64,000 nt of DNA, taken from Candidatus Dependentiae bacterium (GTDB taxonomy: Bacteria > Babelota > Babeliae > Babelales > Vermiphilaceae). Location: assembly GCA_020431705.1 (NCBI GenBank), contig JAGQHQ010000006.1:1-64000 (forward strand), written 5' to 3'. Position 1 is the first letter of the stretch, and each line of letters begins with the position of its first letter. Under the pieces are notes generated by a model. That model did no database searches. It was not told where the DNA came from and saw only the letters and a list, made by a program, of their open reading frames with translations. The translations under genes and the position numbers were made by a program. Positions 1 to 22,067 of this stretch are shown in pieces.

Positions 1-50
1 GGCTACCACTGAGTTCTACACTCTCGCTCTTCACGACGCTCTTCTGATAT
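1..50. other. Residual sequencing-adapter sequence at contig edge (artefact)
   Basis: Bases 1-50 align without gaps to the last 50 bases of the Illumina P5/TruSeq universal adapter, with 41 of 50 identical. Mismatches are at 4, 10, 14, 25, 26, 28, 31, 45 and 49. Landmarks include the CTACACTCT block at 16-24 and the CACGACGCTCTTC block at 32-44. From base 51 onward the sequence returns to an exact copy of a coding repeat found again at 297. I read this as an untrimmed, error-containing adapter at the end of a contig, so nothing in 1-50 should be treated as genomic. Confidence 0.88.
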
Positions 51-1467
51 GTAATTCATCACAGCATGTTTCTACAACTTCAATTCGCGATTCTATAATC
101 TCTCGTTCTGACGTATGCCTATCGTCCAGTTCATCAATCTGCGATTGCAACTCTCCAGTGCTTGTTGCTAACGCATCACAACACGATTGTATAAGATCAT
201 CTATTGCATCAATTTGTGACTGTAATTGCCCTGTACTTGTTTTCAGACTTGAGCAACATTCATCAATTATCGATATCAATTCTCCTGTGCTTGTACGTAA
301 TTCATCACAGCATGTTTCTACAACTTCAATTCGAGTAATAAGACTTTGTAATGCAGAGGTACTTGCACCTCCTTTATCATCATTACCACCATATTTATAT
401 GCAGTTGCACCATAGTTAAGCAATGTCAATTGACTAGTTGAATCAGTAAATACTATATCACCTCCAATTGGTGCTCCTGCACGATCTTTCCAAAGAGTAA
501 CTCCATCAACAGTAAACGATGCCATATCATCGAAGTACCAATTATAAGCCTTCAAAACTAATGTTGTAGGCCCTTTAGCCAACATTCCACCATATACAGT
601 ATAGCTACCCACTAACTCAATTGTAGAATCAGAAAACTCCAACTCTGCCTTATCACATCCTAGAGTACCACCACCATAACCTATCCCTTTTACAGATATA
701 TTGTTCAGATATAACTTCGAACCAACATCAGCAATTAGCGCTCCCCCTTTGCTTAAATCAATTACATTTCCATGACCATTTATTGTACAATCTCCACGAA
801 AGCACAAAACACCAGTTAAATCAATCTTAGTATGCAGCTCAAGATTACTACCATCCTGCCATGTTATAGTAGCAGACCAAGTAAACGGTTTATCACCCGT
901 TGAAACCTTCCTATTCTTTCCCTGTATATAACCAGCACCAGTAAAAATATTAGAACCTGCAAACTTTACATCATCATCTAAATAAACAGTACCTTCATTC
1001 AATACAATATTTTTAGTTATTGCACTACGAACAGCAAGGCTCAAGGTTGTATTTTGATCTTGTAATACAATATCATTATCAAAAATTGGTTGCCCAACTA
1101 ATAAATTATTAATACCAGTAACAATTACCGATTGCTTAAGAATTCCATTTTTGGCTTCTAACTTATTGCCAGAAAGAATGATTTCATTTGTTGAAGGCTT
1201 AAAAACAGCATTAAGTAATAAATCATTCTCAATATCACACAGAAACCCCCCATTAAAACTAATATTTTCACCTGATATAGTACCACCTAAATCTCTAATT
1301 AATGCGCCACCAAAAGAAACAATTGGCTGCTCTGCAACAAATGTCGCTCCAGAAGAAACCTTTATAAAAGAAGAATTACCACGCATCTTTAAATTTGCGC
1401 GACAAATACAAAAAATCGATAAAAAAATAAATAATAAAGCAACTAACACACTACTGCGGCGCTTCAT
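31..1467 (-). CDS. Exported beta-helix-like protein with Cys-pair coiled-coil tail, 3' end truncated by contig edge
   Basis: An N-terminal signal peptide (residues about 1-24) is followed by a Gly/Asn/Ser-rich body with regularly spaced hydrophobic strands (about 25-370). It includes the family motif CTINGHGNVIDLS near 230, shared with the genes to its right. From about 375 the protein becomes coiled coil with repeated CC-x-x-L-x-TSTG-x-L units. The start is ATG at 1467 with an AAAGGGAG Shine-Dalgarno. The stop at 31-33 and roughly the last six residues fall in the adapter-like bases 1-50, so the true C terminus is unknown and the gene is partial. It is the last gene of the minus-strand array, 79 bp after its neighbour. 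It is probably a secreted or surface fibre-like protein; function unknown. Confidence 0.75.
   Translation of the reverse strand: MKRRSSVLVALLFIFLSIFCICRANLKMRGNSSFIKVSSGATFVAEQPIVSFGGALIRDLGGTISGENISFNGGFLCDIENDLLLNAVFKPSTNEIILSGNKLEAKNGILKQSVIVTGINNLLVGQPIFDNDIVLQDQNTTLSLAVRSAITKNIVLNEGTVYLDDDVKFAGSNIFTGAGYIQGKNRKVSTGDKPFTWSATITWQDGSNLELHTKIDLTGVLCFRGDCTINGHGNVIDLSKGGALIADVGSKLYLNNISVKGIGYGGGTLGCDKAELEFSDSTIELVGSYTVYGGMLAKGPTTLVLKAYNWYFDDMASFTVDGVTLWKDRAGAPIGGDIVFTDSTSQLTLLNYGATAYKYGGNDDKGGASTSALQSLITRIEVVETCCDELRTSTGELISIIDECCSSLKTSTGQLQSQIDAIDDLIQSCCDALATSTGELQSQIDELDDRHTSEREIIESRIEVVETCCDELHIRRAS
51..333 (-). repeat. Coding direct repeats of the Cys-pair coiled coil
   Basis: Bases 51-87 and 297-333 are an exact 37-base direct repeat. 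They encode the same coiled-coil segment ending in ETCCDEL. Two further diverged copies of the CC...TSTG unit lie between them. Distances between successive CC pairs are 18, 25 and 39 residues. Repeats of this kind at a contig end are a usual reason for an assembly to stop. Confidence 0.85.
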
Positions 1468-1546
1468 ACACCACGCTCCCTTTTTACGTCACTACAAATT
1501 ACTATCAATACGTGATGATCACTACTACAATTTTACGTTAGCCTTC

Positions 1547-3595
1547 CTAGACGTTTTTGTAAACTAAAAAACCTGATTTGATATCTAAGCAAGACTCAGG
1601 TAATATCCTAACGTAAAGATTATTAGATTGGTAAATTCCATCACCAAAATTAATTCCCTCCTCCAATACAGATGCATCACTTTTAATAAAACAGTTTCCC
1701 TCTATCACCAAAGTCCCTCTAGTCAACTGCAATCCTGTTTCTGTTGAGTGAAATACTGTATCATACAAATGAAGAATCGATGTTTGATCTATCATAGCCA
1801 GTAAGTCTCGAGCGACTGTTTTAGGGTCATAACTTAATGTCATACCTTTATCAAAAAAAACTTTTGTATAAGGAAAAATCGTACTTTGCTGATCTGATTG
1901 ATAAGAAAATGTATGTGTTCCAGTAATTGCTACATCACCAACAATATCAATATAGCCACTTGTAAAAGTGTAGTCTTGCTCTTGCATCCAAATAATATTT
2001 GCTAATGATAGTGTACTTGAACTATCTAAACACCGAACATTCGTACCAACAACACCTTTAAGAGTAGCATCACAAAGTAAGAGCGAAGATCTACTATCAA
2101 CAATAATTGCTCCCTGTGAATCTAGATCAATTATGTACCCATTACCTTTCACAGTACAATTACCCTCAAAACATACTTTATTTTTAAGCGTTACATTTGA
2201 ATTAAACGTTATTTTAGCATTTTTAAATATCAAATTACCAGAAGGATTTTCTGGACCAACAATCTCATAAATATTAACCTCGTAATTTGAATCTCCCCAT
2301 ACTAGATACTTATCATTGTGAGACCATCTAATATCATTAACACCTGCAGAAGTATCAAGTTCATATTTCAAAGTAAGCAGTGTTTGTTTTTTATCAAATT
2401 CATAAACACGGACCTCACTGGTATCAGAAGAATATGCTAAACCAACAGCCAGAAAATTTCCATCAGAATTCCAATGAAGAGAATTTACCATTTTTCTCTC
2501 AACAATTTGTGCTCCTGATTGATTTGTTAACGTTTTCGACACTGCATTATGCTTGAATACACTAATATTATTTGCACTATCTGAAAATCCAACCGCAATA
2601 AAAGAATCACCGCTCATCCAGTCAATTGCTTGCACCGATTTCCCAATATCTACACTAGAATCAAGTGTCAACTTTGAACCATTAAAATTATATATCTTCA
2701 ATTCAGCCCCCTTATTAACAGCTAAACCGACAGCGATATAATTTCCTGTAGAATCCCAAGAAATTGCTTTTTTTCCAATTATTGCACCAGTAGCCACACT
2801 ATTAACAAATGTCAGTTGACCATTCGAGTATGAGTAAACAGACAATACGGAGCTACCAACAGCCAAATAAGTACCGTTTTTATTAAACACAACACATTTA
2901 CCAGAGACAAATTTTTCCACATCAGTAATAGTTAAAGAGTTTGTATCTGGATTATAAATCTCTATACCAACAACGTTACCCTTTGCAGTCTTTGCAAAAT
3001 GATATGAATCAATCGGCAAAAAACGCGCTCCATAGACCGATCTTTGCTGCTGTTCTGCCACATCAAAAAGTAATTGCTCTCCATCAAAATTATACGCTCT
3101 TACTATGCCATTAGATGAAGCAGAAAGAACATGCTCATCATCGAAAGACCAATCAACAGATATTATTGCAGAAGAATCAATGTAATTATCTATAAATCTT
3201 ATTCCACCAACTATGCGTCCAATACCCGATGGCAACTGAATAGAGCCCGTAGTAGTAAATCTCACAGCGTGAAAATTTCCATCAATTTTTCCCACAGAAT
3301 CAAAGCTAGCCCCTAAAAGTAAATCCTTGGACAATTCAAGAATTCCACCATTCAACGTTATTGAACCTGAAACAGGAAAAAGTGAATTATACGTAACACG
3401 CGTAGCAGAATTTTCTAATTTAAATCCATCATCAAACGCAGTAAAACCCACTACTTCATTATCGCTTTCTTTAGATGAATATGTAACGTTTGATTCCTTC
3501 GAGACTTCTACTTCAGAGCCAACTGTAGCAGACTCAAGATGCGGCGTTAATAAGAACAAAAAAATGATAAAATATATCATATTACACTTATACAT
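1547..3595 (-). CDS. Exported beta-helix-like protein with inserted WD-like propeller
   Basis: 682 residues. After a signal peptide (about 1-22) comes the family N-terminal module with LNGGILELSKDLL near 80 and the site that ends in a GRI/GGI strand near 125. A propeller-like insert follows at about 135-450, with repeated W-S/N-x-D/N-G-x-Y/F-L-A-V-G blades, some six to seven. The beta-helix resumes at KNAKITFNSNV and continues with CTVKGNGYIIDL, the RCLDSS motif, a QDYTFTSG strand and LQLTRGTL. The protein stops at YKNV, about 60 residues before the end of its longer paralogs. The ATG at 3595 lies within the end of the upstream gene (8-base overlap ATGTATAA), which suggests translational coupling. 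An alternative ATG is at 3580. Probably exported; ligand or function unknown. Confidence 0.82.
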   Translation of the reverse strand: MYKCNMIYFIIFLFLLTPHLESATVGSEVEVSKESNVTYSSKESDNEVVGFTAFDDGFKLENSATRVTYNSLFPVSGSITLNGGILELSKDLLLGASFDSVGKIDGNFHAVRFTTTGSIQLPSGIGRIVGGIRFIDNYIDSSAIISVDWSFDDEHVLSASSNGIVRAYNFDGEQLLFDVAEQQQRSVYGARFLPIDSYHFAKTAKGNVVGIEIYNPDTNSLTITDVEKFVSGKCVVFNKNGTYLAVGSSVLSVYSYSNGQLTFVNSVATGAIIGKKAISWDSTGNYIAVGLAVNKGAELKIYNFNGSKLTLDSSVDIGKSVQAIDWMSGDSFIAVGFSDSANNISVFKHNAVSKTLTNQSGAQIVERKMVNSLHWNSDGNFLAVGLAYSSDTSEVRVYEFDKKQTLLTLKYELDTSAGVNDIRWSHNDKYLVWGDSNYEVNIYEIVGPENPSGNLIFKNAKITFNSNVTLKNKVCFEGNCTVKGNGYIIDLDSQGAIIVDSRSSLLLCDATLKGVVGTNVRCLDSSSTLSLANIIWMQEQDYTFTSGYIDIVGDVAITGTHTFSYQSDQQSTIFPYTKVFFDKGMTLSYDPKTVARDLLAMIDQTSILHLYDTVFHSTETGLQLTRGTLVIEGNCFIKSDASVLEEGINFGDGIYQSNNLYVRILPESCLDIKSGFLVYKNV

Positions 3596-4649
3596 TTTTA
3601 TTACTCACAAATCCGGATTCAATCTTTAAGCCTGATTCATCAAGAATATTTACAAAAAGATTATTATTGCTCAGCACACCATCTCCAAAAATGATTCCTC
3701 CAGAAGCTTCCGTCGCATCACTAAATATTGAACATTCACCCTCAACAACCAATGATCCCTTTGTAAGTTGCAATCCAATAGAAGTCACATATAAATTTGT
3801 CTCACGCAAATATAACAATGCCTTTTCATCCTCCAACGCAATGAACTGTGAACTAGAAGATGCATAGCTAAAACTCATATTAATATCAAAAAGCCAAGTC
3901 GCACCTGACCTAACAGTACTCGTTTGATCACTTTCATATGTAAAAACATGCGAACCAGACATTTTCAATTTTCCTCCTATAACTTCTATCGAACCTTGAG
4001 TAAAACTGTAATTAGCATCTTGAATCAATAAAACATTTTCAAAACAGAATACTCCGCTATTATGTGTACAATATAGTCTTTCCTGTGCTACTCCAGAAAT
4101 AGTAGTATTTTTTATAGTAACAATGCTTCCTTCGCCCACCGCTAGTGCACCACTAGAAACATTCATTTGATAGCCATTACCTTCAATCTGACACTCTCCC
4201 TCAAAGCGAATCTCCCCATTTAAATTAAGATGAGAATTTAAAACAATATCGACATTATTAAAAACCATTGCCCCGCCAAAGCTAAATACCGTTATCTTAT
4301 CTGGTAAAAAGATTATGTTACCATTACCAAAAATAGTACCACCATTTTCCAGCACAGCATTACTTTCAAATAAAAGGTCACGATTTAAATTAAGTATCCC
4401 ACCATTTAGTTTCACAGAGCCGCCAACAGGAAAAAATGAGTTAAAAAGACACTCTGTATAAGAATTTTGAAAAACAAAACCATTTTCAAACGCAGCAAAA
4501 CCACGCATTTCATTATCTGTATCAGAAGATAAAAATGTTACTGCAGATTGCCGAGAAGGTACCGTATCAGAACCAACGACGATGGCCAAAGTATCTGTAA
4601 TAAAAAAGAAAAGATACAACAGTAAATAAAAAATAATTTTAGGCTTCAC
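3588..4649 (-). CDS. Exported beta-helix-like protein, short form without propeller
   Basis: 353 residues, GTG start at 4649 backed by a strong GGAGG Shine-Dalgarno four bases upstream (the nearby ATG is out of frame and hits a stop at once). Signal peptide about 1-22, then the family N-terminal module (SDTDNEMRGFAAFENGF, LNGGILNLNRDLL). The second half has CQIEGNGYQMNVS, FTQGSIEV, a YESDQTSTV strand and LQLTKGSLVVEG. Where three paralogs carry a propeller this one runs straight through (FLPDKITVFSFGG then NNVDIVLNS). It ends in SNKNV, at the same place as its downstream neighbour, so both lack the C-terminal module of the longer paralogs. Function unknown. Confidence 0.82.
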   Translation of the reverse strand: MKPKIIFYLLLYLFFFITDTLAIVVGSDTVPSRQSAVTFLSSDTDNEMRGFAAFENGFVFQNSYTECLFNSFFPVGGSVKLNGGILNLNRDLLFESNAVLENGGTIFGNGNIIFLPDKITVFSFGGAMVFNNVDIVLNSHLNLNGEIRFEGECQIEGNGYQMNVSSGALAVGEGSIVTIKNTTISGVAQERLYCTHNSGVFCFENVLLIQDANYSFTQGSIEVIGGKLKMSGSHVFTYESDQTSTVRSGATWLFDINMSFSYASSSSQFIALEDEKALLYLRETNLYVTSIGLQLTKGSLVVEGECSIFSDATEASGGIIFGDGVLSNNNLFVNILDESGLKIESGFVSNKNV

Positions 4650-4676
4650 ATCACCTCCAGCTTATTACAAAACTAG

Positions 4677-6965
4677 TTACAAATTTCTAAAAACCAGTGC
4701 TCCTAAAACATCTATTGCACCTATAATATTTTTTCCATCGGCCTTAGCACAAACTGTATTATTTTGAAATCGAGCTCTACCATTACCCAAATTAATTGAT
4801 TGATGTAAAGCAAGCCGCGCTCCTGAGACAATCGATAAGATAGAAGTTTGACCCACCATACTCCATGATGATGGATCCACATTTCTATATGTAAGCGACC
4901 CTTCTAAAACTCGTAACATTTGATTGCTCAAAATTTCAATAGACATATCATTGCTTTCTTGAATTCCATCACCAAGTATAATTCCTTCATCAATGGTCAA
5001 ATACTCATCAATAATTTCCTTTTCTGAAGAAAGATATGAATCCCTTTCTACACGCAAAGTACCTCTTGTTAACTGCAAACCAGTAACTGTAGTATGTAAT
5101 GTTGAACTATTCAGAATCAAAACAGAACTCTTATTCTCAAATTCCAAAAGACTTTGTGATGTTAGCACGATCGGATCATAACTAAATGTAAACCCTTCAT
5201 CTAACTTCCATGATGATTTGGCAAGTAAAGTACTTGTTCTGCTTGACTGATAAACAAACATATGATTACCAGACATTACAACATCTCCACTAAAACGTAT
5301 TGCACCATGTGAGAATGTCACTATATCATCTTGTAACCACTTCACATCACGCAACGTCAATACACCAGTATCATCAACACATCTCAAATCTTCACCACTA
5401 AGCCCTTTTATTTTTCCCTTTTCAATTATTAAATTAGCATCCTTATCAACCGTTACTTCACCACCAGACAAGTCTAGGGAATATCCTCCACAATCGAACG
5501 TACAGCTTCCCTGAATAATGATATTTCCCCCAACATTAACATTTGAATTAAAAAATAATTTTGCATTTTTCAATACTAGCGGTTGATCAACAAACTCTAA
5601 AACAGTTATTTTTTGTTGAGCTGCAACAGCCAAATAGTCACCATTACCTGTCCAATGCAACTGATGCCAGCCTACCGTGGAAGGCTTATAACCACCAACA
5701 TGAACAAGTTTTTTATTCTCTAAATCAAACTTAAGTACCTTCACTCCATAATCATTAGTTGATGGCGGCTTAGTATATGCTAAAAAACCACCGTTATTTC
5801 GCCAGTGAACACCATAAACAGCAGAAAACTCACCAAAAAAACTATCCGTCACGTCTATTAACGTAGCATTGTTCATGTTATATTCATAAACACGTAATTT
5901 TTGTGATCCAGTCAAATAACCTACAGCAATAAAAGAAGTTTCAGGTAAGCAATTGATAGAATAAATTCTTTCTGAAGAATTATTATTGATACCAACACTG
6001 AAATTTAATGAAGAACCAGTAAAACTAAATATTTGAAACGCTGGCATAGTATTGTGCAAATAAAATCCAATCGCTATGTTATCATCATCCTTCCACTCAA
6101 GACAATTCATGAGAACATAACCTAACTCTCCGAAATTGCCTGTATATTTTGCTCCAAGTACACCATCAGTAATATCAAAAACATCAAAACTATTGGCATA
6201 CAGTCTACTAACAGCTACATGATCACCATTAGGACTCCACGCAACCGATGAAACATATTGCAAGTTAGCACTATCAGTTAAGGTGAGATCATATGTATGT
6301 TCGTCAAAGTATAGAACTTTAAATGCATATGTACTTCCGTATGAAGCAAGAGCCAAATAGTAATCACTTGGATGCCACCGAACATTATATGCATATGTAG
6401 CTTCTGGCACATCATATTCTGCACGTTTAACTATAGAACTTCCATCAAATTCCAAAATTTGCAATTCTTTACCTGTAGCATAGCCATAACCACTTAAAGC
6501 AATAAAACGATTGTCATGTGACCAATCAACACTATATCCGAGCATCTGAATGGTATACTCATCAACAGTATTAAGCAATCTTGTATGACCAGTTGTTGGT
6601 AATGTAATTGTTGAAATATTCCTCGGAAATGTAATTGCAAAGCCATTACCATTTATTGTACCAGATCCAAATTTCACCGGCTTTTCTACCGTCAAATCAT
6701 GTGCCAAATGTAATGTTCCACCATTGAGAACTAAACTACCTGCAACCGGAAAAAAGCCATCAAATGTTGTACTTGTTACACTATCCTCCAAAAAAATACC
6801 ATTTTTAAATGAAGAAAAACCAAGTAATGTATTATTAGTATCAGATTTAATAAAGAAAGGTGCCGATTGCCTCGCAACTGTCGTATCGGCACCAGCAACA
6901 ATAGCATAGATGTGTAAAAAAGTAACACTAGAACAAAATATAATAACAAAAAAACATTTTATCAT
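4677..6965 (-). CDS. Exported beta-helix-like protein with inserted WD-like propeller, long form
   Basis: 762 residues. Signal peptide about 1-22; N-terminal module with GADTTVARQ, LLGFSSFKNGIFLED and LNGGTLHLAHDL. The propeller insert spans about 130-455: SVDWSHDNRFIALSG, VRWHPSDYYLALAS, VAWSPNGDHVAVS and similar blades. The helix then resumes with KNAKLFFNSNVNVGG, CTFDCGGYSLDLS, RCVDDTGVLTLRDVKWLQDD, FVYQSSRTSTL and GLQLTRGTLRVE. Unlike the two genes downstream it continues past YRNV with a 60-residue C-terminal module (LGNGRARFQN, IIGAIDVLGAL). The ATG at 6965 has no clear Shine-Dalgarno but sits 21 bp after the previous stop, as expected in an operon. Confidence 0.83.
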   Translation of the reverse strand: MIKCFFVIIFCSSVTFLHIYAIVAGADTTVARQSAPFFIKSDTNNTLLGFSSFKNGIFLEDSVTSTTFDGFFPVAGSLVLNGGTLHLAHDLTVEKPVKFGSGTINGNGFAITFPRNISTITLPTTGHTRLLNTVDEYTIQMLGYSVDWSHDNRFIALSGYGYATGKELQILEFDGSSIVKRAEYDVPEATYAYNVRWHPSDYYLALASYGSTYAFKVLYFDEHTYDLTLTDSANLQYVSSVAWSPNGDHVAVSRLYANSFDVFDITDGVLGAKYTGNFGELGYVLMNCLEWKDDDNIAIGFYLHNTMPAFQIFSFTGSSLNFSVGINNNSSERIYSINCLPETSFIAVGYLTGSQKLRVYEYNMNNATLIDVTDSFFGEFSAVYGVHWRNNGGFLAYTKPPSTNDYGVKVLKFDLENKKLVHVGGYKPSTVGWHQLHWTGNGDYLAVAAQQKITVLEFVDQPLVLKNAKLFFNSNVNVGGNIIIQGSCTFDCGGYSLDLSGGEVTVDKDANLIIEKGKIKGLSGEDLRCVDDTGVLTLRDVKWLQDDIVTFSHGAIRFSGDVVMSGNHMFVYQSSRTSTLLAKSSWKLDEGFTFSYDPIVLTSQSLLEFENKSSVLILNSSTLHTTVTGLQLTRGTLRVERDSYLSSEKEIIDEYLTIDEGIILGDGIQESNDMSIEILSNQMLRVLEGSLTYRNVDPSSWSMVGQTSILSIVSGARLALHQSINLGNGRARFQNNTVCAKADGKNIIGAIDVLGALVFRNL

Positions 6966-6986
6966 TTTATTTGTGTCATAATTGAG

Positions 6987-8261
6987 TTATAAAACTTCTG
7001 TTACCACCGCACCACCAATATCTAAAGATCCAATAACTTTTTTTTCTGGATATCTAGCAAATGTCGTATCATTAGAAAAATATAAAACACCTTTTCCTAG
7101 CGTAATATCTTGATATAAACCAAGCCTTGCACCAGAAGCAATGGATAGTCTTGAACGTTCATTAAACATTCTCAAAGATCCAGCATTAACATTATCATAA
7201 AATAACGTACCACTTGAAAGCTCTAAGATACTGCCACTTAAAATAGTACAACGAACATCATTTTCTGAAACACCACTGCCAAATATTATACCCTCATCAA
7301 TTAGCTGCTCACCAAAACTTGTAACCTCGGATGATAAAAATGAGTCTCGTTTGACCAACAAATCTCCGCGGGTCAACTGCAAACCAGTTACAGTCGCATG
7401 TAAGGTAGCACCATCCAGTATAAGACGAGAAGTATCACTCTGAAATTCTAACAATATTTTAGAAGCAACTCTAATTGGATCATAGCTAAACGTAAAATCA
7501 GAATCTAATAGCAACGATGAGCGGCTCGCAATAGTAAACGTTTTACTTGTTTGGTAAGCAAAGCTCCCCTTGCCAGTCATCACTACATCATTTTTAATTA
7601 TTAAGCCACCATATAAAAAAACAAAATCGTCATCCTGCTTCCAAACAACATCATCTAATGTCATCACACCAGTATCGTCATAACAGCGTATATTATCTTC
7701 TTTTAATCCCTTAATAACACCATTTTCAAAGTGTAATCGACTATCATTAGCTACTGTTATTGACCCACTATCACCTATAGATAAAGCATAACCGCCACAA
7801 TTAATTACACAGCTTTTCTTAATCATTATATCTTCTGTAATCGTAGCATCTGATTGTAAAAAAATTTTAACATTGTTGAGTGAAACTGGAATGTCTACAT
7901 TAGAACTACTTCCCGGGAATTCAACAGCAAAACCATTTCCATAGATCCACCCACTATGTAGCTGCAGTGGATTTTTAAACTTTAAGTCATGAGCTAAGTG
8001 CAACGAACCTCCATTTAGTTCTACAATTCCAGCAATTGGAAAAAAAGCATCAAATGTACATGTTGTTTTAGAATCTTCCAAATAAATACCATTTTCAAAA
8101 ACCGAAAACCCCAACATTGTATTGTCAACATCCTGCGATGGAAATTTTGGCTTTCTTTGACGAGCAACAGTTGTATCAGAGCCAACAACTATGCCATATG
8201 ATTGAGTACAAAAACTCAGATAAAATATTAAAGCAAACGTAAATATATTGAATATATGCAT
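6987..8261 (-). CDS. Exported beta-helix-like protein, long form without propeller
   Basis: 424 residues with ATG at 8261 and an AGGGG Shine-Dalgarno seven bases upstream. Signal peptide about 1-23. It is close to its downstream neighbour in every module except that the propeller is absent: GNGFAVEFPGSS is followed almost directly by LNNVKIFLQSDATI. Other family landmarks are CVINCGGYALSI, RCYDDTGVMTLDDVVW, YQTSKTFTIASRSS, LQLTRGDLLV and the C-terminal LGKGVLYFSN...VIGSLDIGG. The pair 4677/6987 is therefore the clearest with/without comparison for the propeller insertion. Function unknown; probably secreted or attached to the surface. Confidence 0.83.
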   Translation of the reverse strand: MHIFNIFTFALIFYLSFCTQSYGIVVGSDTTVARQRKPKFPSQDVDNTMLGFSVFENGIYLEDSKTTCTFDAFFPIAGIVELNGGSLHLAHDLKFKNPLQLHSGWIYGNGFAVEFPGSSSNVDIPVSLNNVKIFLQSDATITEDIMIKKSCVINCGGYALSIGDSGSITVANDSRLHFENGVIKGLKEDNIRCYDDTGVMTLDDVVWKQDDDFVFLYGGLIIKNDVVMTGKGSFAYQTSKTFTIASRSSLLLDSDFTFSYDPIRVASKILLEFQSDTSRLILDGATLHATVTGLQLTRGDLLVKRDSFLSSEVTSFGEQLIDEGIIFGSGVSENDVRCTILSGSILELSSGTLFYDNVNAGSLRMFNERSRLSIASGARLGLYQDITLGKGVLYFSNDTTFARYPEKKVIGSLDIGGAVVTEVL

Positions 8262-8277
8262 AACAGTACCCCTGTTC

Positions 8278-11200
8278 TTAGTCAGTCATGATTACTGAAC
8301 CAACAACCTTCTGGCCAGGCTGAAGATTAATTACTGCTCGCTTACTCAACATTAGCCTGCCAGCACCTAAATTCAATGTTTTCTCTACATCTAACCTAGC
8401 CTCTGGATCAACAACAAATGAAGATACTGCATTGCCCATATTTAATGACCAACTATCAACGTTGTTGTAAATTAATGCTCCTTGTTTAACTCGTAATATT
8501 GATCCAATACCTATTTCAACATAAAGATCATCTTCAATATTTCCCGAACCAATAGTAACTCCCTCATCAATAGTAGTTTCAAAATCAACTACTTGAGTTT
8601 CAGAGCTTATACAACAATTGCCTTTAATATTTAACCTACCAGAATCTAACTGCATGCCTGTCGTAGTTATATGCAGTGACGCATCTCGCAATGCAAGAGT
8701 TGCTGTATCACTTTCAAATACCAACAAATTTTTAGATGCAACAACAACGGGATCGTAACTAAATGTTAAACCTGTATCTAACTTCAGAGTAGCGGCAGAC
8801 TTGATAGTACTTGTTCGCGAAGATTGATAAATAAACTTCGTACCATCGCCATGAAATACTACATTATTTATAAACGACATGCTTCCTATAGAAAAAGTAT
8901 AATCACCATCCTGCTGCCAATCAACATTATCAATTATAAGAGACCCATCATTATCTACACAACAAATATTATGCTCTGCTACCCCTTGAATAACCAGATC
9001 TTTCAATACCAAGGTTGAACCTTCAGATACAATTATTTGCCCATTCTGTGCGAGAGATAGAACACTCCTATTACCATTTATTTGGCACACACCATCAACA
9101 GTCCAACTACTTGAAAGATCGAGGCTACCACGCAAGTTAATACTTGCGCCACTGCCAGACAACATTAATGGTGTTGTCCAAGAATACTCACCAGCACCAA
9201 GAACAATTTGATTACTATTCATGGTAACTAATCCAGGCCCAATTAGACCAAAACCCTTGGTAAATTCAAGATCTCTTTCCAATGTGAGCGATCCACCTGT
9301 AAGCATAATATTATTTGAAACAACACCATTTAATCGATACAACATGTGTGCAGAGCTATCATTAAACATAATTCCACCAGTAATAATACCATTGCCATGC
9401 AGAATATTATTGATACCCGCAATAAGTACGTAAGTAGGTAAAATACCTTTATTAACAAAAATTGATTGGTTACCAGCAAGCATATTCATAAACCAGTTAA
9501 CTCGACTACCAATTACCTCAAATTCACCGTTGGTATCAAGAGCAACAATCGGGTTATAACTTAATACTTTTCCAGCAGCAACATTTAACGTTGCAGCAAG
9601 ACCTGCTTCCACTGTAATATTTGAAAGCTCAATATTCTGAGCTATGTATAAAATACTATTATCCGTTCTTACGATTTTCGCTGTTTTTGAACGAGATCTA
9701 ATACCATTCTGTAAAGTTACATCATACGTAAGTGCACCTTTTTCAACGCGCACAGTTGTGCCTGGATACAACTCAAAAACCATGTCATTATCAGAAGTTC
9801 CATCACCAAAAATAAGACCGTTTTGAGTAGTAGTCGAAACTATTTCTACAGCAACATCACGCTCAGCAGTAATAGTTCCTTTTGTACCTCGCATACCATA
9901 TTCACTCACATAAAATGTACAATTATTTAGACCAAGTACAGAGGTGGAATCAGTAAACGCCAACGGTTCATTTCCATCAGCTGCTAATTTACCAATCTCA
10001 AGCGTCATTCGATTTGTAATATTCCAAGATGATTTGACATCCACAGTACTTGTTTGTGAGCTTTGGTAAAAAAATGTATGCTCTCCTGCAAAATCAACAT
10101 CATCAACAAAATAAATAGAGCCCATTGTAAAACTAAAATCATTATCCTGAAGCCACACAACATCATCCAAAATGAGCCTTCCTGTATTGGTAAGACACCT
10201 GATATTATTATTCTTAAGCCCTTTAAGACGAACGTTCTTAAGAAGGAGTGTTGCATCACTGGCAATAACTAAATTACCCTCATCCCCAAAGTTAATTGTA
10301 TTACCATTTCCCTGAATAACACAACTTTCTTGCATAGTCCATGTTGCAGAAAGATTTAAAATTCCATTAATAGAAAGAACACCCCCATCACCAGACCAGC
10401 CGATTGATTGATCCCACGTAGTTTCCTTTTGAGAAAGTTCTAGTGTATAAACATCTAAATTAATGCTACCAGGACCTTTCAATATAACGCCTGAGTCAAA
10501 TTTAACATCTCGATTCAAAATAATTTTACCACCTGAAAGCTGAATCGATTGAAGTATATCCCCATTTAAGTCAATAGTAAGCGAAGAACTTTTATTTTGT
10601 AGCGATACTAACCCACTAACACGCCCAGTCCCACTCAATAAATTATTATCATCAATAACTTGGACATCAAACGGCATAACTCCTTGATTCAACGTTAAAT
10701 TATCAGCAGATCCATCCATCTTATATACACCAGCCTCCTGCTGAAGACTCTTAAGTGTATGAGAGCCTATAGGCATAACAATACGAGATCCATCAAATTC
10801 TAGTGAAACACCTGATGCTATTTCGATAGGAGCAAGATTCATCGACTCTGCTTCTAGCTTAAATGATGGAAATACAACATCTTTAGCTATATAGCTGCGA
10901 GAACCCTCAAGTCGCTTATAGACAGCACTATTTGAAGGTGCATAGATTCGATAAGGAGAACCATTATTATAAACAAAATAGCCACCTTTATGTACAACAG
11001 CAGAACCAGGATCAAATCTAACAACAACGTCATTCTCACTATTACCATCACCCCAAATAAGACCATGCTCTGTTGTCGTTGAAAGGACATCGAACAACAC
11101 ATCTCTGTCAAAGGTAACAGTCCCACGCGTCAACTGCATTCCTGAAGATGTTATGATAAGTGAACTTTGATCAAAATTTATTGATGAACTTGAGTCCACA

Positions 11201-14200
11201 AAATACAATGGTTCAATAGCATTAGCAGGATTGTGTCGCCCAATACGAAGATGCAAACCTTCTGTGATAAACAACCCAGAATCCGATTCAATAGTACTTG
11301 TTTGAGACGATTCATATGAAAATGTATGCGTTCCCATTATCGAAACATTATTCTCAAATGAAATACTACCGGTATCAAAAGTAAAATCGCCATTCTGAAC
11401 CAATTCAACATTATTCAGTTGAATAGATGAAGAGTCATCTAGACATCGAATATTACTACTACTTAAACCATTTAATGTTATATCTTTAAATTGTATAGTT
11501 GAACCGCCAGTAATCTCAATACTACCCCCGCCAGAAAGGTCTAACTCGTTACCCTTACCGTTAATAATACATGAGTTATTTAATGTCCACGTCCCACTCA
11601 AAGATAAATTAGCACCAAGCTCTAATTCCGCATTTTCACCCTGCCAATAAATGTCCGTTATCCAAGAAGTATTTTTTGATCCAATCGATAGCTTATACGC
11701 ACCAAGATTGACAACACCAGGCCCGTTAATTAAAACACCACTTCCTAAGTTCATGTTACCACTCAATAATAACATTCCACCAGAGAGTATAATATGGTTG
11801 TTGACAAAACCATTAACACTATAATCAAATGATGACGATGCATTTTGAAGAATAATCTGACCTGTCAAATTACCATTTCCCTGCAAAATATTATTCGCTC
11901 CTGAAATAGCAAGGTATGAAGCAATTAGCCCCTTATTTAAAAAGATAGAACTATTACCGGTAAGAGCATTCATAAACCAGCTTACTCTACTTCCAGTAAT
12001 TTCAAATTCACCATCATCTTGTAATGCAACAAACCGATCATAGCTGAGTGTTTTACCATCAGCAACATTCAACACTGCTAGCGGCCCAGCTTCAACGGTC
12101 AAATTCGAAAGAAATAAGTCTTGTTTTATATAAATGTTACTTGTGTTTGATCTATAAAATTTTACAGTCTGAGAGCTAGACTTAATACCATTTACATCTA
12201 CCACATCATAAACAAAGGAACCGTTTATAATACTAATAGTTGCACCAGCGTTTAACTCAAGAACAGCATTACCATCTATGGTTCCGTTACCAAGTATCAA
12301 ACCCTCAGGCGTAGTTGTTGCAAGAATATCTACAACTACATCGCGAGAACATGAGATTTTACCCTTTGTTATCGTCGTTCCAGAATTGGTTATACATAAC
12401 GTACAATTTTCTAATCCAAGAATCGATGAACTGCCCTCAAATACAATCGGCTCTACATCATCTACAGACAGCTTACCTACTTTTAGTGTCGCACCGTCAG
12501 AAAAATTCCATCTTGATTTAAGATCGATTGTTGATGTTTGCGCACTTTCATAAGAAAACGTATAAGAACCAGAAAAATCTACATCATCTAAAATTTTAAG
12601 ACTTCCTATTGAAAATGTTATATTGTCGCTCATTAAAAATGTAACATCGTCAAGAAGAATTTTACTTGTATCAGACAGACAACGAATCTTTGTGCCTTCA
12701 ACATATTTAATTGTCATATTTTTAAGAACAAGAATAGAATCAGGACTAACAATAATTTCAGCAAAGTCTCCCAGTGTTAATGTGTTACTCTGACCATCTA
12801 TTGAGCAATCTCCATTAAAGGTCCAAGCTGTATTCAAATTGATGTTTGATTGCAACCCAACAAAACCACCATTCCCTTCCCATGTTATAGCAGTTTCCCA
12901 ACTTGTGTCTTGTCTTCCTGTTAATAAACCACAGGTTGTTAAATCAACAGTTCCCGGCCCAGTAATAATAGTACTCGGACCAAGCTGCAAGTTTGATTCT
13001 AAACCAAAAAAACCACCGTTAAGAGTTGCATCTCCCTGCATTTCTCCATTAATAGAAATAGATAATTCTGCTGCTGGGGAAAGGAAAACAATTGGAGAAA
13101 CGATATCTCCATTGCCAGTAACACTGTTACCAGTTCCATTAACCACGATCCCTCTTGGAAAGCTTCCCGTGGAAATAGAAATAGTACCATCACCATTTAA
13201 CAATAATGCTGTATCACCATACCGTTGGGCAGTTATTTGAAATAAACCAATAGGTGACTCTGCACGAGAGTTTTTATTTAGAACAGTAACCCCTGGTGCA
13301 ACTTGCACTTGCTCAACGGCCATTGATGCAATCTCGATAGTAAACGAGGGCATTGTTACATCTTGAGCTATATAAAGATGAGAACCTAAATACCGGACCA
13401 GTCGAGACTCTATAGATGTCGATTCTATACCGTTTGATACGCCATTATTATAAACTAAATGACCAGAAATATGGTTTACTACAGCACCAGAATTAAAACG
13501 TATCTTTACATCGTTTTCCGCGGTACCATCACCCCAAATTAATCCCGTTTGAGTATTTGTCGATTGTATATCAAGATTAACGGCATTATAAAAATCAAGA
13601 ACACCACGAGTCAACACCATCCCATTTGAGGAAACTATCAATGAACCATTATCAATTCTTAGTATTGATGTTTGATCATCGAAGTGAAGTGGTTCAACAC
13701 CATTATCACTTTTACCAGCACAAAAAAGCATACCCTCGGTTATAAGTAAAGACGAATTTGATCGAATAGTACTTGTTCGAGAACTTTCATAGACAAAATG
13801 ATACTGGCCAATACAATCAACTTGATCAACAAAAGTAATGCTTCCCATGCTAAATGTATAATGAGAATCTTGTATCCATTTAACCCTATTAAAAACAAGA
13901 GAAGCGGTATCATCTGCACATCTCACTTTATATCCAGAAACATTTTTTAATTCTATATCTCTAAGTTCAAGCATCGCGCCTTGATCAATAATAAGAGCTG
14001 CATCATCACCCAACACAAGCGCATTCCCCTTACCGTTAATTATACAATTATTTTTAAAATGCACCGTAGTATTTAATGTCAGATCATGCTCAAAAGAAAA
14101 AACAAGATTATCAAAGCGCTCAGTATCATCTGGTAAATACGTAATAGTAGAACAAAAATCAATAAGCTGAGCACCATTATTAACAATAGATCCCAAACCT

Positions 14201-14502
14201 AAAAGAATTGTTTTATTATTAAAAAAAAGATCTTGACTTAAATAGAGGGTTCCACCATTACAATTTACTTCTCCTGAAATAGGAAAAACAGAATTAAAAT
14301 CACATTCTGTACTGGAATTTTCTAACGTAAACCCATTGCGAAACCAAGCAAATCCACGCATTTCATTGTTGTTATCTGAGCTAGGAAACGTTACTGTTGG
14401 TTGAACCGAAACAAGTATCTCCGATCCATAAATAATTGCCTCAATATGACGAGAGAACAACACTACGAAAGAAAAAAACAAAATCCTAATAGATTTATTC
14501 AT
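8278..14502 (-). CDS. Giant exported protein of five beta-helix-like modules
   Basis: About 2074 residues from ATG at 14502 (GTG at 14511 is also possible). Signal peptide about 1-23. Five copies of one module follow; the conserved R/C-C-x-D/N-x motif recurs near residues 197, 611, 1022, 1438 and 1850, a period of about 413. Modules 1 and 3 resemble each other (GLIWGDG..END, YNNG, SYIA.DV..PSF) and modules 2 and 4 resemble each other (NILxGNGxxTG, SRVxWFMN, LNVAxGKxLSY), while module 5 resembles the C termini of the shorter paralogs. This reads as duplication of a two-module block. No membrane anchor or known catalytic motif is seen. It lies 16 bp upstream of the next gene, so it is probably in the same operon. 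Likely a long surface or secreted fibre; this is inference. Confidence 0.85.
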   Translation of the reverse strand: MNKSIRILFFSFVVLFSRHIEAIIYGSEILVSVQPTVTFPSSDNNNEMRGFAWFRNGFTLENSSTECDFNSVFPISGEVNCNGGTLYLSQDLFFNNKTILLGLGSIVNNGAQLIDFCSTITYLPDDTERFDNLVFSFEHDLTLNTTVHFKNNCIINGKGNALVLGDDAALIIDQGAMLELRDIELKNVSGYKVRCADDTASLVFNRVKWIQDSHYTFSMGSITFVDQVDCIGQYHFVYESSRTSTIRSNSSLLITEGMLFCAGKSDNGVEPLHFDDQTSILRIDNGSLIVSSNGMVLTRGVLDFYNAVNLDIQSTNTQTGLIWGDGTAENDVKIRFNSGAVVNHISGHLVYNNGVSNGIESTSIESRLVRYLGSHLYIAQDVTMPSFTIEIASMAVEQVQVAPGVTVLNKNSRAESPIGLFQITAQRYGDTALLLNGDGTISISTGSFPRGIVVNGTGNSVTGNGDIVSPIVFLSPAAELSISINGEMQGDATLNGGFFGLESNLQLGPSTIITGPGTVDLTTCGLLTGRQDTSWETAITWEGNGGFVGLQSNINLNTAWTFNGDCSIDGQSNTLTLGDFAEIIVSPDSILVLKNMTIKYVEGTKIRCLSDTSKILLDDVTFLMSDNITFSIGSLKILDDVDFSGSYTFSYESAQTSTIDLKSRWNFSDGATLKVGKLSVDDVEPIVFEGSSSILGLENCTLCITNSGTTITKGKISCSRDVVVDILATTTPEGLILGNGTIDGNAVLELNAGATISIINGSFVYDVVDVNGIKSSSQTVKFYRSNTSNIYIKQDLFLSNLTVEAGPLAVLNVADGKTLSYDRFVALQDDGEFEITGSRVSWFMNALTGNSSIFLNKGLIASYLAISGANNILQGNGNLTGQIILQNASSSFDYSVNGFVNNHIILSGGMLLLSGNMNLGSGVLINGPGVVNLGAYKLSIGSKNTSWITDIYWQGENAELELGANLSLSGTWTLNNSCIINGKGNELDLSGGGSIEITGGSTIQFKDITLNGLSSSNIRCLDDSSSIQLNNVELVQNGDFTFDTGSISFENNVSIMGTHTFSYESSQTSTIESDSGLFITEGLHLRIGRHNPANAIEPLYFVDSSSSINFDQSSLIITSSGMQLTRGTVTFDRDVLFDVLSTTTEHGLIWGDGNSENDVVVRFDPGSAVVHKGGYFVYNNGSPYRIYAPSNSAVYKRLEGSRSYIAKDVVFPSFKLEAESMNLAPIEIASGVSLEFDGSRIVMPIGSHTLKSLQQEAGVYKMDGSADNLTLNQGVMPFDVQVIDDNNLLSGTGRVSGLVSLQNKSSSLTIDLNGDILQSIQLSGGKIILNRDVKFDSGVILKGPGSINLDVYTLELSQKETTWDQSIGWSGDGGVLSINGILNLSATWTMQESCVIQGNGNTINFGDEGNLVIASDATLLLKNVRLKGLKNNNIRCLTNTGRLILDDVVWLQDNDFSFTMGSIYFVDDVDFAGEHTFFYQSSQTSTVDVKSSWNITNRMTLEIGKLAADGNEPLAFTDSTSVLGLNNCTFYVSEYGMRGTKGTITAERDVAVEIVSTTTQNGLIFGDGTSDNDMVFELYPGTTVRVEKGALTYDVTLQNGIRSRSKTAKIVRTDNSILYIAQNIELSNITVEAGLAATLNVAAGKVLSYNPIVALDTNGEFEVIGSRVNWFMNMLAGNQSIFVNKGILPTYVLIAGINNILHGNGIITGGIMFNDSSAHMLYRLNGVVSNNIMLTGGSLTLERDLEFTKGFGLIGPGLVTMNSNQIVLGAGEYSWTTPLMLSGSGASINLRGSLDLSSSWTVDGVCQINGNRSVLSLAQNGQIIVSEGSTLVLKDLVIQGVAEHNICCVDNDGSLIIDNVDWQQDGDYTFSIGSMSFINNVVFHGDGTKFIYQSSRTSTIKSAATLKLDTGLTFSYDPVVVASKNLLVFESDTATLALRDASLHITTTGMQLDSGRLNIKGNCCISSETQVVDFETTIDEGVTIGSGNIEDDLYVEIGIGSILRVKQGALIYNNVDSWSLNMGNAVSSFVVDPEARLDVEKTLNLGAGRLMLSKRAVINLQPGQKVVGSVIMTD

Positions 14503-14617
14503 TACTACCACATTACCACTTTTTTTGAGCTCTACTTCCTAGTAAGAAAAACTAACAACAAACCTCATTTAGTCAAGGACACAAATATAATTTTAATACA
14601 TGATAATATACACACGC

Positions 14618-16897
14618 TCAATCAAACATAACAGTACCCAAAGCGTGTACTCCACCCAAAAGCTCTCTCCCTGCCATTCGACGTAATATTGCATTCTTAG
14701 AAAGTATTGCCATACCTAAGCCAAGATCAAGAGACTGTAGTAAACAAAGCTCTGCAGCAGAACCTAATTTTAATACTGACCCACTACTTACCATACGCCA
14801 TGAATCAGCAGAAATATTGTTGTAATTCAATATTCCCTTTTTCAACAATAATAATGCCCCGCTTGCAATAGTACATGTACAATCTTCACCTTGTACACCA
14901 GTACCAATAACTATACCATCTTCAATGCCACTATTATTTGATGAAAAAGTTGAATCTGTCTTTACTTTTAAACTTCCATTTTTTAGTAATAATTTTTGAG
15001 CAGATGAATGGAGAGTTGCTCCATGCAAAATTAACTGCGAAGAGCTATCTGCCATCCCTAATAAATCACAACGAGAAAGACAAGTCGGATCATAGCTAAA
15101 AGTGATCCCCCCATCAAGTATTAAACTTGATCTTGGCAAAATAAGACTCCTTTGATTTGAACAATAAGCAAAAATACTATTGCCCTCCATAGTAACTCTG
15201 TTTTTAATACACAATTTCCCCGTAGAGAATGTAAAATCATTATCTTGCAACCACATCAAATCACGTAAAACTAAAACACCAGTATCACTCAGACATTTTA
15301 TATTTGTTTGAGCAACACCTGTAAGAATTGCATTTTCTAAAACTAATTTGCTATTTTCTCCAACTTGAATAGCACCTTTACAGCCCAAGTCAAAAATGTT
15401 ACCACCACCATTTAAAATACAATGCCCATAAAAAATAATAGGAACTTCAAGAAAAACATCTGTCCTAAAAAATAATTTTGCATCTTCAACAACAAACCTT
15501 GCTGGAGCAATTTCAAAAACATATAGTTTTCCATTTTTATCTAACACAGAAAAACGGTCCTGTGCTTTAACACTGGTAAGCGTTTTTATTTCTTGCATAA
15601 AATGATTTTTTGCAATAATTGTAATCTCATTTCTTGACTGCGATATTGCAAATACATATGGCCCATGTAAGTTTTTTTTGCTACTCACTAAACTTACAAA
15701 AAATGAACCGTCTTTCGACCAGATAGCATTATAAAGTCCATCTATTTTCAGTGAGGTAAATGGAAGTTCTTCTATCAACCGACTACTTTCAGCATCGAAA
15801 TAATATAAGATTCCTTTTGTTTTAATATCAGAAAAACCAACAACAAGTAATGGGCGCTCAGTATGCCACGCAAGGGCAGTTATCTGCCGTTTTGCTTCAA
15901 GAAGCAAATCTGAGGTAATACCATCTTTACCAATGTTTAAAATTGATACAATACACTGATTTTTTTTATCATATCCAGCAACAACAACATAAGTATTTGT
16001 GTGATCCCAAGAAATCATGTTTTTTAATGGAAAAAATCCTTTTTTCATCAAGGCATATCCGATCGAAACAAGACGAGAATTTTCCCATTTATATATCCTA
16101 ACACCACATTTATTTTTGTTTTCAGCAATAACTGAACTACTTGCTGCTAAATACTTGCCATCAGAAGACCAAGAAAGCCCACTCGTTACATCACTATCTA
16201 TACGCACGTACTCATTCAAGCATTTTTTAATAGAATCAAATGAAATGACTCTTAGTATTGAACATTCATGCTCTGACAAGACAAAAATATATTCAGATGG
16301 ATGCCAACAAAGAACTTGTATACCATTTGGACAATCAATTTTTTTAGAGACAACCAAAGAAAGTTTGTTATCTTCCACAGAAAAAATCTTAAGGGTAACT
16401 CCTTCATTGACGACATTCTCTGAAATTGCAAGATATGAACCATCATAAGACCAATCCATTACAATGTTTGATCCAGTAAAAGTAGCTGTTGCAACTAAAT
16501 TTAATTGCTTTGAATATTCACTAGCCGGAAATTCAAACACAGAAGCATTTGTTGGAAATTCAATAGCAAAGTTATTACCATTGATATAGCCTGCCCCAAA
16601 TCTAACTGGACCGCGCAGAAGCAAATCTTGAGTCAAATACAAACTGCCACCATTTAAAGCAATTGTTCCAGATACCGGAAAATAAAGCCCCAGACTACAG
16701 GTTGTATTCATATCCTCAAGTGTAAAACCATTTTGAAGAACCCCAAAACCAGAAAGGATATTATTAGTATCTTTTGATGGGAAATATACTGCTTTTTCTA
16801 CCGTAATACTGTTCATGTCCCCAATTACTACAGCAAAGGTAGAGGTAATATACAGATATACAAAAAGAAAAAAGAAAAGATAGCGATAGTGCCTCAT
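14618..16897 (-). CDS. Exported beta-helix-like protein with inserted WD-like propeller, first gene of the array
   Basis: 759 residues, ATG at 16897 with a GAGG Shine-Dalgarno. Signal peptide about 1-22. N-terminal module: SKDTNNILSGFGVLQNGFTLED and LNGGSLYLTQDLLL. The propeller covers about 135-455 with blades such as MDWSYDGSYLAIS, LCWHPSEYIFVLS, LSWSSDGKYLAAS and LAWHTERPLLVVG. The helix returns with VEDAKLFFRTDVFL, CILNGGGNIFDLG, KCLSDTGVLVLRDLMWLQDN, FSTGKL and a full C-terminal module ending GGVHALGTVMFD. This is the most diverged of the three propeller-bearing paralogs. It is first in the transcription order of the array; 106 bp separate it from the giant gene, enough for an additional promoter. 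Confidence 0.82.
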   Translation of the reverse strand: MRHYRYLFFFLFVYLYITSTFAVVIGDMNSITVEKAVYFPSKDTNNILSGFGVLQNGFTLEDMNTTCSLGLYFPVSGTIALNGGSLYLTQDLLLRGPVRFGAGYINGNNFAIEFPTNASVFEFPASEYSKQLNLVATATFTGSNIVMDWSYDGSYLAISENVVNEGVTLKIFSVEDNKLSLVVSKKIDCPNGIQVLCWHPSEYIFVLSEHECSILRVISFDSIKKCLNEYVRIDSDVTSGLSWSSDGKYLAASSSVIAENKNKCGVRIYKWENSRLVSIGYALMKKGFFPLKNMISWDHTNTYVVVAGYDKKNQCIVSILNIGKDGITSDLLLEAKRQITALAWHTERPLLVVGFSDIKTKGILYYFDAESSRLIEELPFTSLKIDGLYNAIWSKDGSFFVSLVSSKKNLHGPYVFAISQSRNEITIIAKNHFMQEIKTLTSVKAQDRFSVLDKNGKLYVFEIAPARFVVEDAKLFFRTDVFLEVPIIFYGHCILNGGGNIFDLGCKGAIQVGENSKLVLENAILTGVAQTNIKCLSDTGVLVLRDLMWLQDNDFTFSTGKLCIKNRVTMEGNSIFAYCSNQRSLILPRSSLILDGGITFSYDPTCLSRCDLLGMADSSSQLILHGATLHSSAQKLLLKNGSLKVKTDSTFSSNNSGIEDGIVIGTGVQGEDCTCTIASGALLLLKKGILNYNNISADSWRMVSSGSVLKLGSAAELCLLQSLDLGLGMAILSKNAILRRMAGRELLGGVHALGTVMFD

Positions 16898-17037: not shown

Positions 17038-18678
17038 TTAACCCATAAATGCTTTAATCAACATCCAGACAGAATTTCCTGCAAATACACCAGACCAAAA
17101 CGGAACTACCTCTTCTTTTTCTTTATAAAAAAGCGTAAGAACACCACCAAGCACAAGACCAAGAGAAATTGCTGTTGGCATTAACAAACCACCAAGAACC
17201 AACATTGGATGAATTCTAATAAACTTTAATAACCACCCAAACATAAAACCAAGCAGTAAAACATACACATTAAAACTCTTAACATCGATCAAAAGTCGCC
17301 GTGCGAATGCTTTTTGCGCAAATAGCTCTGCAGAACCTAAACCAAAATGTTTAATTAAAACACAAAAAACAATACCTATAGCCAGTACACTCACAAGCAA
17401 CCCTAGATACTGATAACACTGTAATTTCCTATGATTAAGATTAGCAAGAACACCCAACTTTCTGCTAAATAAAACATCAGCACACACACCGCCAGCAATC
17501 TGCACAAATGTTGAAATAAAAACAATCTGTACAAAATCAAGATTAAACAAAAACATTGCTGGCACCATTACAAACGTTGCAAATCGTCCAAGTTGAGCCA
17601 GCCCTATTTTACCCGCAATAACCGCAACTTGATACGTGCACATAAACGTAAAAAACAATAAATACAATTGCGTAAGCAATGAAAAATCAAAATAGGTTAA
17701 AAATACAACACATACCGCAAGTAATAAAATTAGTTCTAGAGCACATTCCTTAGTTAGTCCAGAAAATAACATTGAACTACACATACCCACATCATTGCAC
17801 ACATTTATGTCATTTTGATTATTTTTCTTATCAAGAAATTTTTTCACTTTTTTTAAAAACATCTTTGGTGTTTTAATAAAACCAACAACTGCCCCAGCGA
17901 TCACCATACCACTACAAAATGCTAACAAAAATTCCACAGAGCTTATCCATGAAAAAAACCATATATTTAGTGGGCCTGTTACAAATATTTTTGCAAACGC
18001 ACCAACAAAAAGCGGCACAGTAATTAAATGTCCTGCAATAAACCCTATAGCCAAAAGCATCGGGAAAATCGCAAAATCAACTTGAGTCAATGGAATATGC
18101 AAGACGCCAAATCGCATACGCGGCACTAAAACTAAAAAACGTGGAATATGGCACGTATACTTTAAATACGCAAGGCCACTTTGAAAAAAAGAAAACAACA
18201 TGGCACCAACAAAACCTATTGCAAGCTCTAATGATTTGCGAGCTTGCTGTTGCGCTTCAATCATTTTATAAATCACCTGCCCAATAGGAAATTCATAATT
18301 TTCTTGCACAATTAAACGCTCTTCAATAACGTTTGCTACCCATACCCCAAACCAACCTGCAGTAAACGCAAGACCTGCCATCACAGTTACAAAATAAACT
18401 GGCTGTACTAACCACGAATTAAATAATTCTGGATCTAAAAAGAACAGTGTAGGAAAAGAAAAACCACACGCGGTCGCCAAAATACCACCAATTGAAGCTG
18501 AGGACACAACAAGTGCTATTTTTTTGTTAGTATCATTTTTTATCGTCAAAAGTCTAAAAAAAAGTGATGCTATTAGTACAAGCATCGGCGCGATCCAAGG
18601 TCCAATTGGTACGGCCATCGAGATATAGCCCATAACCGCTGTAGAAAAAACTGAAAGTATAATACTGAGTAACAACAT
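17038..18678 (-). CDS. OPT-family oligopeptide/metal-chelate transporter
   Basis: About 546 residues, nearly all membrane: at least twelve hydrophobic segments. The run FSFPTLFFLDPELF near 75 and EFPIGQVIYKMIEAQ near 135 match what I know of bacterial OPT-superfamily permeases (the OPT_2 branch), which import small peptides or siderophore-metal complexes by proton coupling. It is a little shorter than most family members (600-700 residues). A soluble loop near 285-300 is Lys/Asn-rich. ATG at 18678 (or TTG at 18681) lies after AAGGAG. It is divergent from the hydrolase gene at 18780 and not obviously part of the array downstream. The substrate cannot be read from sequence. Confidence 0.72.
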   Translation of the reverse strand: MLLLSIILSVFSTAVMGYISMAVPIGPWIAPMLVLIASLFFRLLTIKNDTNKKIALVVSSASIGGILATACGFSFPTLFFLDPELFNSWLVQPVYFVTVMAGLAFTAGWFGVWVANVIEERLIVQENYEFPIGQVIYKMIEAQQQARKSLELAIGFVGAMLFSFFQSGLAYLKYTCHIPRFLVLVPRMRFGVLHIPLTQVDFAIFPMLLAIGFIAGHLITVPLFVGAFAKIFVTGPLNIWFFSWISSVEFLLAFCSGMVIAGAVVGFIKTPKMFLKKVKKFLDKKNNQNDINVCNDVGMCSSMLFSGLTKECALELILLLAVCVVFLTYFDFSLLTQLYLLFFTFMCTYQVAVIAGKIGLAQLGRFATFVMVPAMFLFNLDFVQIVFISTFVQIAGGVCADVLFSRKLGVLANLNHRKLQCYQYLGLLVSVLAIGIVFCVLIKHFGLGSAELFAQKAFARRLLIDVKSFNVYVLLLGFMFGWLLKFIRIHPMLVLGGLLMPTAISLGLVLGGVLTLFYKEKEEVVPFWSGVFAGNSVWMLIKAFMG

Positions 18679-18739
18679 CAAAGCAACATCTCCTTGTAGT
18701 AGAGGCTTTTTTGCGACATGCGTTTAAAACTGTAGCAGA

Positions 18740-21975: not shown

Positions 21976-22067
21976 AATCAGAACTTTCTTGATAAAATAC
22001 AACTTTAATGTTTAATAGCTAAATAAAATGTACAAGAAAGCAAAATGAATGAAAAGTAATTCGTTTC

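Follow-up and report, generated by a model that had tools for sequence, protein, structure and literature searches.

The Dependentiae are protist parasites represented by very few isolates. Passages of the Chromulinavorax description assign secretion signals to 44% of the inferred proteins, many of which lack recognisable relatives of known function (PMC6561590), and passages on the Babela massiliensis genome report several WD40 and other β-propeller proteins, some of them predicted to be secreted (PMC4378268). The proteins studied here belong to the same phylum and share the WD40-type propeller and predicted secretion with those of B. massiliensis, for which the same passages describe no solenoid host, fixed site or pairs of proteins with and without a propeller head. 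Export had been regarded as unusual for WD-type repeats in the first-pass annotation of the present DNA, a view weakened by the Babela precedent.

Like members of the WD40 superfamily, the propeller described here has seven four-stranded blades built on W-core repeats, with THOC3 and CIAO1 as best sequence matches and CIAO1 (3fm0/6tbl) and PkwA (5yzv) as the closest solved seven-bladed folds (TM about 0.76-0.82 by target length). It differs from typical WD40 proteins in its predicted export, its β-solenoid host, its few canonical WD motifs and its highly diverged blades. The host resembles HMW1, Ag43, TibA and SRRP, which are among its top but weak structural matches, in being an exported β-solenoid rod (here by prediction); unlike for these adhesins, no match has an E-value below 1e-3 and Pfam reveals no autotransporter barrel or known translocator. 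As a working analogy only, PilB, a modular type IV pilin of Streptococcus sanguinis, is described as a fibre subunit with a binding module (PMC8179133); its folds and assembly are unrelated to those of the present proteins. Within the scope of open PMC text, the solenoid family, its fixed-site head and the locus are new, while the folds were already known.

A propeller at one site of a tandem solenoid family

The window, i.e. the whole 64,000-nucleotide stretch of a Candidatus Dependentiae bacterium contig analysed here, begins with a run of seven ORFs (31-16897), all on the minus strand and spaced by 16-106 bp or overlapping. Genes are named below by their lower coordinate.

14618-16897, minus strand: predicted exported β-solenoid protein of 759 aa with propeller, which opens the same-strand run
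15500-16534, minus strand: propeller insert of 14618, residues about 122-466
8278-14511, minus strand: multi-unit solenoid protein of five units without propeller, 2077 aa
14119-14142, minus strand: empty insertion point of 8278, located in its first unit between the N- and C-flank matches
6987-8261, minus strand: solenoid protein of 424 aa without propeller, the paralog closest to 4677 (AlphaFold2 model, pLDDT 89.4)
7896-7904, minus strand: empty insertion point of 6987
4677-6965, minus strand: solenoid protein with propeller, 762 aa (AlphaFold2 model, pLDDT 89.5)
5580-6605, minus strand: predicted seven-bladed propeller insert of 4677, residues about 121-462
3588-4649, minus strand: solenoid protein without propeller, 353 aa
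4278-4292, minus strand: empty insertion point of 3588
1547-3595, minus strand: solenoid protein with propeller, 682 aa
2237-3238, minus strand: propeller insert of 1547, residues about 120-453
31-1467, minus strand: degenerate solenoid with Cys-rich coiled-coil repeats (CCDELRTSTGELQSQID), last gene of the locus

Gene 31 adds a seventh member to the family, a degenerate one that the contig end probably truncates. The first-pass annotation had counted six full paralogs, three of them interrupted at the same point by a propeller. Of these, 8278 is no plain paralog: it consists of five tandem solenoid units, of which the first alone is comparable with the other proteins.

Pfam and alignment placed the propeller at one site in 1547, 4677 and 14618, and structural models were obtained for 4677 and 6987. 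WD40-type repeats were detected in these three proteins with best E-values of 1.7e-15, 4e-7 and 3.6e-11, respectively (THOC3, CDC20, WD40 and ANAPC4 models); ANAPC4_WD40 exceeded its cut-off in all three, and PF00400 did so in 1547 (39.3 vs 27), with 4677 (24.5) and 14618 (26.6) just below. No propeller was matched by Pfam in 3588, 6987 or 8278, with only a sub-threshold Bactofilin hit in 3588 (E 0.06). In the alignment, the insertion point lies between the GNGFAxxFP...LP segment and the KNAKxxFNSNV strand, and the insert comprises about 335-345 residues rather than the 320 first proposed. The description of the insertion as clean was borne out, its occurrence being all or none.

Modelling of 4677 (with 27 relatives) and 6987 (with 15 relatives) predicted an uninterrupted β-solenoid for 6987 and, for 4677, a true propeller between consecutive solenoid rungs. 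The solenoid strands of both models run in the same register, offset by -2 before and +337 after the insert, so that about 339 residues are inserted net between the rungs. In 4677, seven W-core repeats at residues 148, 197, 243, 291, 339, 388 and 438 correspond to seven blades, with Cys replacing Trp in the repeat at 339, and Foldseek matched the predicted toroid to CIAO1 (3fm0, TM 0.80) and bacterial PkwA (TM 0.78). These analyses establish the predicted fold and its site.

Among the three window copies, pairwise identity is 21-27% in the propeller and 36-46% in the flanks. The blades at the solenoid site share little sequence with one another (median identity over 16 residues, 0.12-0.38), as is characteristic of an old propeller. 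Most propeller columns with conservation in 70% or more of the rows are of the fold type (W, G, P and hydrophobics), and a survey of these columns brought out no evident active-site set or conserved surface patch among the propellers; judged from sequence, varied ligands would fit this pattern better than one shared active site. Two candidate hallmarks of the insert were rejected: a stem disulfide, as Cys flank both sides in only 11 of 45 inserts and in none of the three window copies, and the blade signature F[DN]G..LT as an indicator of a single lineage, as it is missing from the coiled-coil and NosD contexts described below.

The solenoid itself gave only weak Foldseek matches, to adhesin and lyase β-helices and none with E below 1e-3, and has no sequence relative in the PDB. 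There was no fitting PHROG model and no NCBIfam model at its cut-off; the solenoid part had no Pfam or NCBIfam match, hence none to a C-terminal membrane barrel or TpsA-type secretion domain, the 4677 model ends in solenoid strands, Pfam revealed no known translocator, and no anchor was identified in the locus. An N-terminus resembling an export signal was found by a simple rule in 86 of the 95 comparable family members, in line with the earlier proposal that the propeller would be exported.

Profile searches of the genome from which the window derives uncovered more solenoid copies on contigs C23 and C31, one of them carrying a fourth propeller; these four are all the detectable propellers of the window type in this genome, and each lies inside a solenoid. 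The contigs of the window (C6), C23 (locus L021) and C31 (L022) all end within CCDELRTSTGELQSQID or coiled-coil repeats, and the ends of C23 and C31 are near-identical over about 570 bases. This genome likely contains several copies of the locus, joined at CCDELRTSTGELQSQID repeats. On C31, one gene is divided in two at the propeller site: a DUF5122 (delta-60) propeller is fused ahead of the N-flank (L022 2081-3709), and the C-flank is encoded by an ORF of its own that has a signal-like start (L022 1265-2047). Two more genes are split just after or just before the propeller (L062 2031-4017 and L090 8241-10227), which may reflect assembly error or real fission.

Gene order and a putative extracellular fibre

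The solenoid family was detected in 38 of 101 genomes of the order, with the same number of genomes in a phylum-wide search, and a strong propeller match in 28 of the 101. The solenoid profile retrieved 13 named loci, all from metagenome assemblies, of which 12 carry the labels Candidatus Dependentiae, Babeliales or TM6 and the remaining one is called simply 'bacterium'. A pattern scan of viral contigs returned no relatives. A first contig scan with a four-paralog alignment was without matches, profile A4 was too variable, and profile A8 gave matches.

A recurrent gene order was established, in which a multi-unit solenoid gene is followed by a varying number of single-unit genes with or without the propeller (headed or headless) and then by a gene for a coiled-coil protein. 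It is found in genomes G010, G013, G014, G015 and G020 and, with variations, in the window, G022, G007 and G064; it is not uniform across all genomes, and in the window the headed 14618 precedes the multi-unit gene. In one relative, the last gene of the locus (L058 12587-16306) encodes collagen-like GPTGPTG repeats together with a Cys-rich coiled coil. The recurrent order and the collagen-like last gene fit a putative extracellular fibre. A transporter-like gene (17041-18681) and a HIT-family gene (21631-22002) adjoin the locus in the window, and look-alikes flank the loci of several relatives (e.g. L065 and L066), suggesting a stable chromosomal site.

We favour, as the probable explanation, an ancient propeller insert that mostly descended jointly with its host, was repeatedly lost, and provides optional heads on exported fibre rods. 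An ancient WD40-type seven-bladed propeller would have become seated in a loop between two rungs of an exported Dependentiae β-solenoid, tandem duplication would have multiplied the solenoid gene, and repeated loss of the whole domain would have produced propeller-less paralogs that stayed in the same gene row; whole-domain loss is presumably the only tolerated change because a partial propeller cannot fold. The genes of the locus would be co-expressed and their products would pass the inner membrane via the predicted signal peptide. A putative extracellular fibre may then consist of the long multi-unit rod, single rods and the coiled-coil or collagen-like protein, from which the propeller, held on a short stem by its two adjacent ends, would project sideways as a putative head that binds either a host molecule or a neighbouring one. 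Rods with and without the head would be variants of one part present together rather than an on/off switch.

The propeller might instead, with the same history, serve in assembly, as the contact through which adjacent rods dock in a surface lattice, a proposal that competes with the functional part of this explanation and not with its history. One gene row does hold headed and headless rods, long rods and a coiled-coil protein; however, no conserved surface patch is evident among the propellers and many paralogs and genomes manage without a head, and we regard a lattice contact as rather unlikely.

All-or-none occupancy and loss-favoured history of the site

Across 95 comparable proteins of the order, with multi-unit proteins entered by their first unit, the gap between the flanks measured 3-29 aa in 50 and 345-379 aa in 45, with nothing in between, demonstrating an all-or-none distribution. 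The script would have excluded any row that combined a long gap with the lack of a propeller match, and it reported none. Presence of the propeller at the same point in 45 of the 95 proteins excludes chance.

On the flank tree, which is moderately resolved, propeller presence changes 19 times (shuffled mean about 32), at least 10 of these changes falling on well-supported branches, and headed and headless proteins often pair within one genome, such as 4677 with 6987 or the C23 genes at 3002 and 5228. A loss-only model outperformed a gain-only model by 8-13 log units under either rooting (lnL -48.9 to -53.8 vs -62.0), establishing a loss-favoured history; when the tree was rooted on the multi-unit clade, allowing a few gains gave a slightly better fit than loss-only (lnL -51.0 vs -53.8) at the cost of one more parameter. 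The propeller and flank trees agree in their broad groups. In a control with random halves, quartet distances were 0.19-0.20 between flank halves, 0.32-0.33 between propeller halves and 0.32-0.34 between flank and propeller. Flank-propeller distance therefore equals the noise of the propeller halves, and no independent propeller history is detectable overall. These results thus yielded the outcome that the first-pass annotation had itself named as refuting a mobile cassette: at the solenoid site, the propeller appears for the most part to have been inherited together with its flanks and to have been lost repeatedly. Close pairs are under purifying selection (omega 0.07-0.24 in the propeller, 0.03-0.30 in the flanks), and positive selection on the propeller was not found, the highest omega being 0.41 in a distant pair, with most synonymous sites approaching saturation.

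That the propeller is an exchangeable cassette, moved among paralogs or hosts by recombination in conserved flanks so that binding specificity is swapped as a module, appears unlikely, since the tree signal does not exceed noise, gain-only histories fit worse and no repeats bracket the insert, its borders showing only diverged coding paralogy. Self-movement at the site was thus not upheld, but isolated movement-like cases occur, as do apparently independent insertions of WD propellers into other solenoids (see below). The best case of propeller transfer to another host protein is provided by genome G022 (contig C8, L064 3-3293 and 3506-8833), in which two coiled-coil proteins of the locus-closing type carry two propellers each. 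These group with solenoid propellers of another genome, G007 (support 97/90), bring similar stem cysteines and have blades as diverged as those at the solenoid site (identity 0.12-0.25), which marks them as the same old kind. One candidate propeller replacement is L055 2385-4523, which is 55-59% identical to its sisters in the flanks and 28-31%, the background level, in the propeller; it may also be one fast-evolving propeller, as an arrangement holding the three together is not rejected by the AU test (p 0.18). In line with exchange, the KNAKxxFNSNV border strand matches strongly at the DNA level between 1547 and 4677 (84% over 37 nt), and the propeller data disfavour one flank clade, that of 4677-like proteins whose C-terminus is longer (AU p 0.037). 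AU tests were otherwise weak or borderline and mostly not significant, conflicts involving G010 and G088 not being rejected, and their p-values are too small if anything because clades were picked after viewing the trees.

Gene conversion of flanks within tandem arrays, which could mimic co-descent or state changes by turning headed into headless neighbours and vice versa without propeller travel between genomes, agrees with the mostly same-genome origin of the closest headed/headless pairs and the frequent clustering of paralogs by genome in the flank tree, but we consider it improbable, as simple tandem duplication accounts for the same pattern and no recent tract is visible, most of the pairs tested having synonymous sites close to saturation (pS about 0.5-0.76).

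Propellers on other exported scaffolds

Among the selected loci inspected, beyond which more hosts may exist, WD propellers also occur in the solenoid family itself close to its C-terminal rungs (G086, G088, G091 and G099) and within NosD/Beta_helix proteins (G002, G013, G024 and G077). In the latter (L116 2-1990, L121 868-3009, L118 2-3373, L131, L130 and L128), the propeller lies between a GFxxPYGILL motif and the next coil, and no empty-site homolog was present among the seven matches. Blade identity in the propellers measured at these two kinds of sites is 0.38-0.75; such more alike blades suggest more recent amplification and hence parallel events rather than copies of the window insert. 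Long WD40 arrays with very similar blades were also seen outside the solenoid (G087, L119 3234-6485 and L120 1797-3464).

Tentatively, and with considerable doubt, Dependentiae may equip several unrelated exported scaffolds with WD40-type propellers as plug-in heads, a phylum-wide modular display in which old heads are transplanted and new ones amplified in place from single blades. The scaffolds would include a single solenoid family with more than one site, NosD-type β-helices and coiled-coil stalks.

An orphan family of predicted exported proteins, found in more than a third of the searched genomes, now has a predicted fold and a locus architecture. The natural comparison of proteins with and without the head makes its role directly testable, and 95 proteins with repeated whole-domain change at a single point offer a good system for studying gain and loss of inserted domains.
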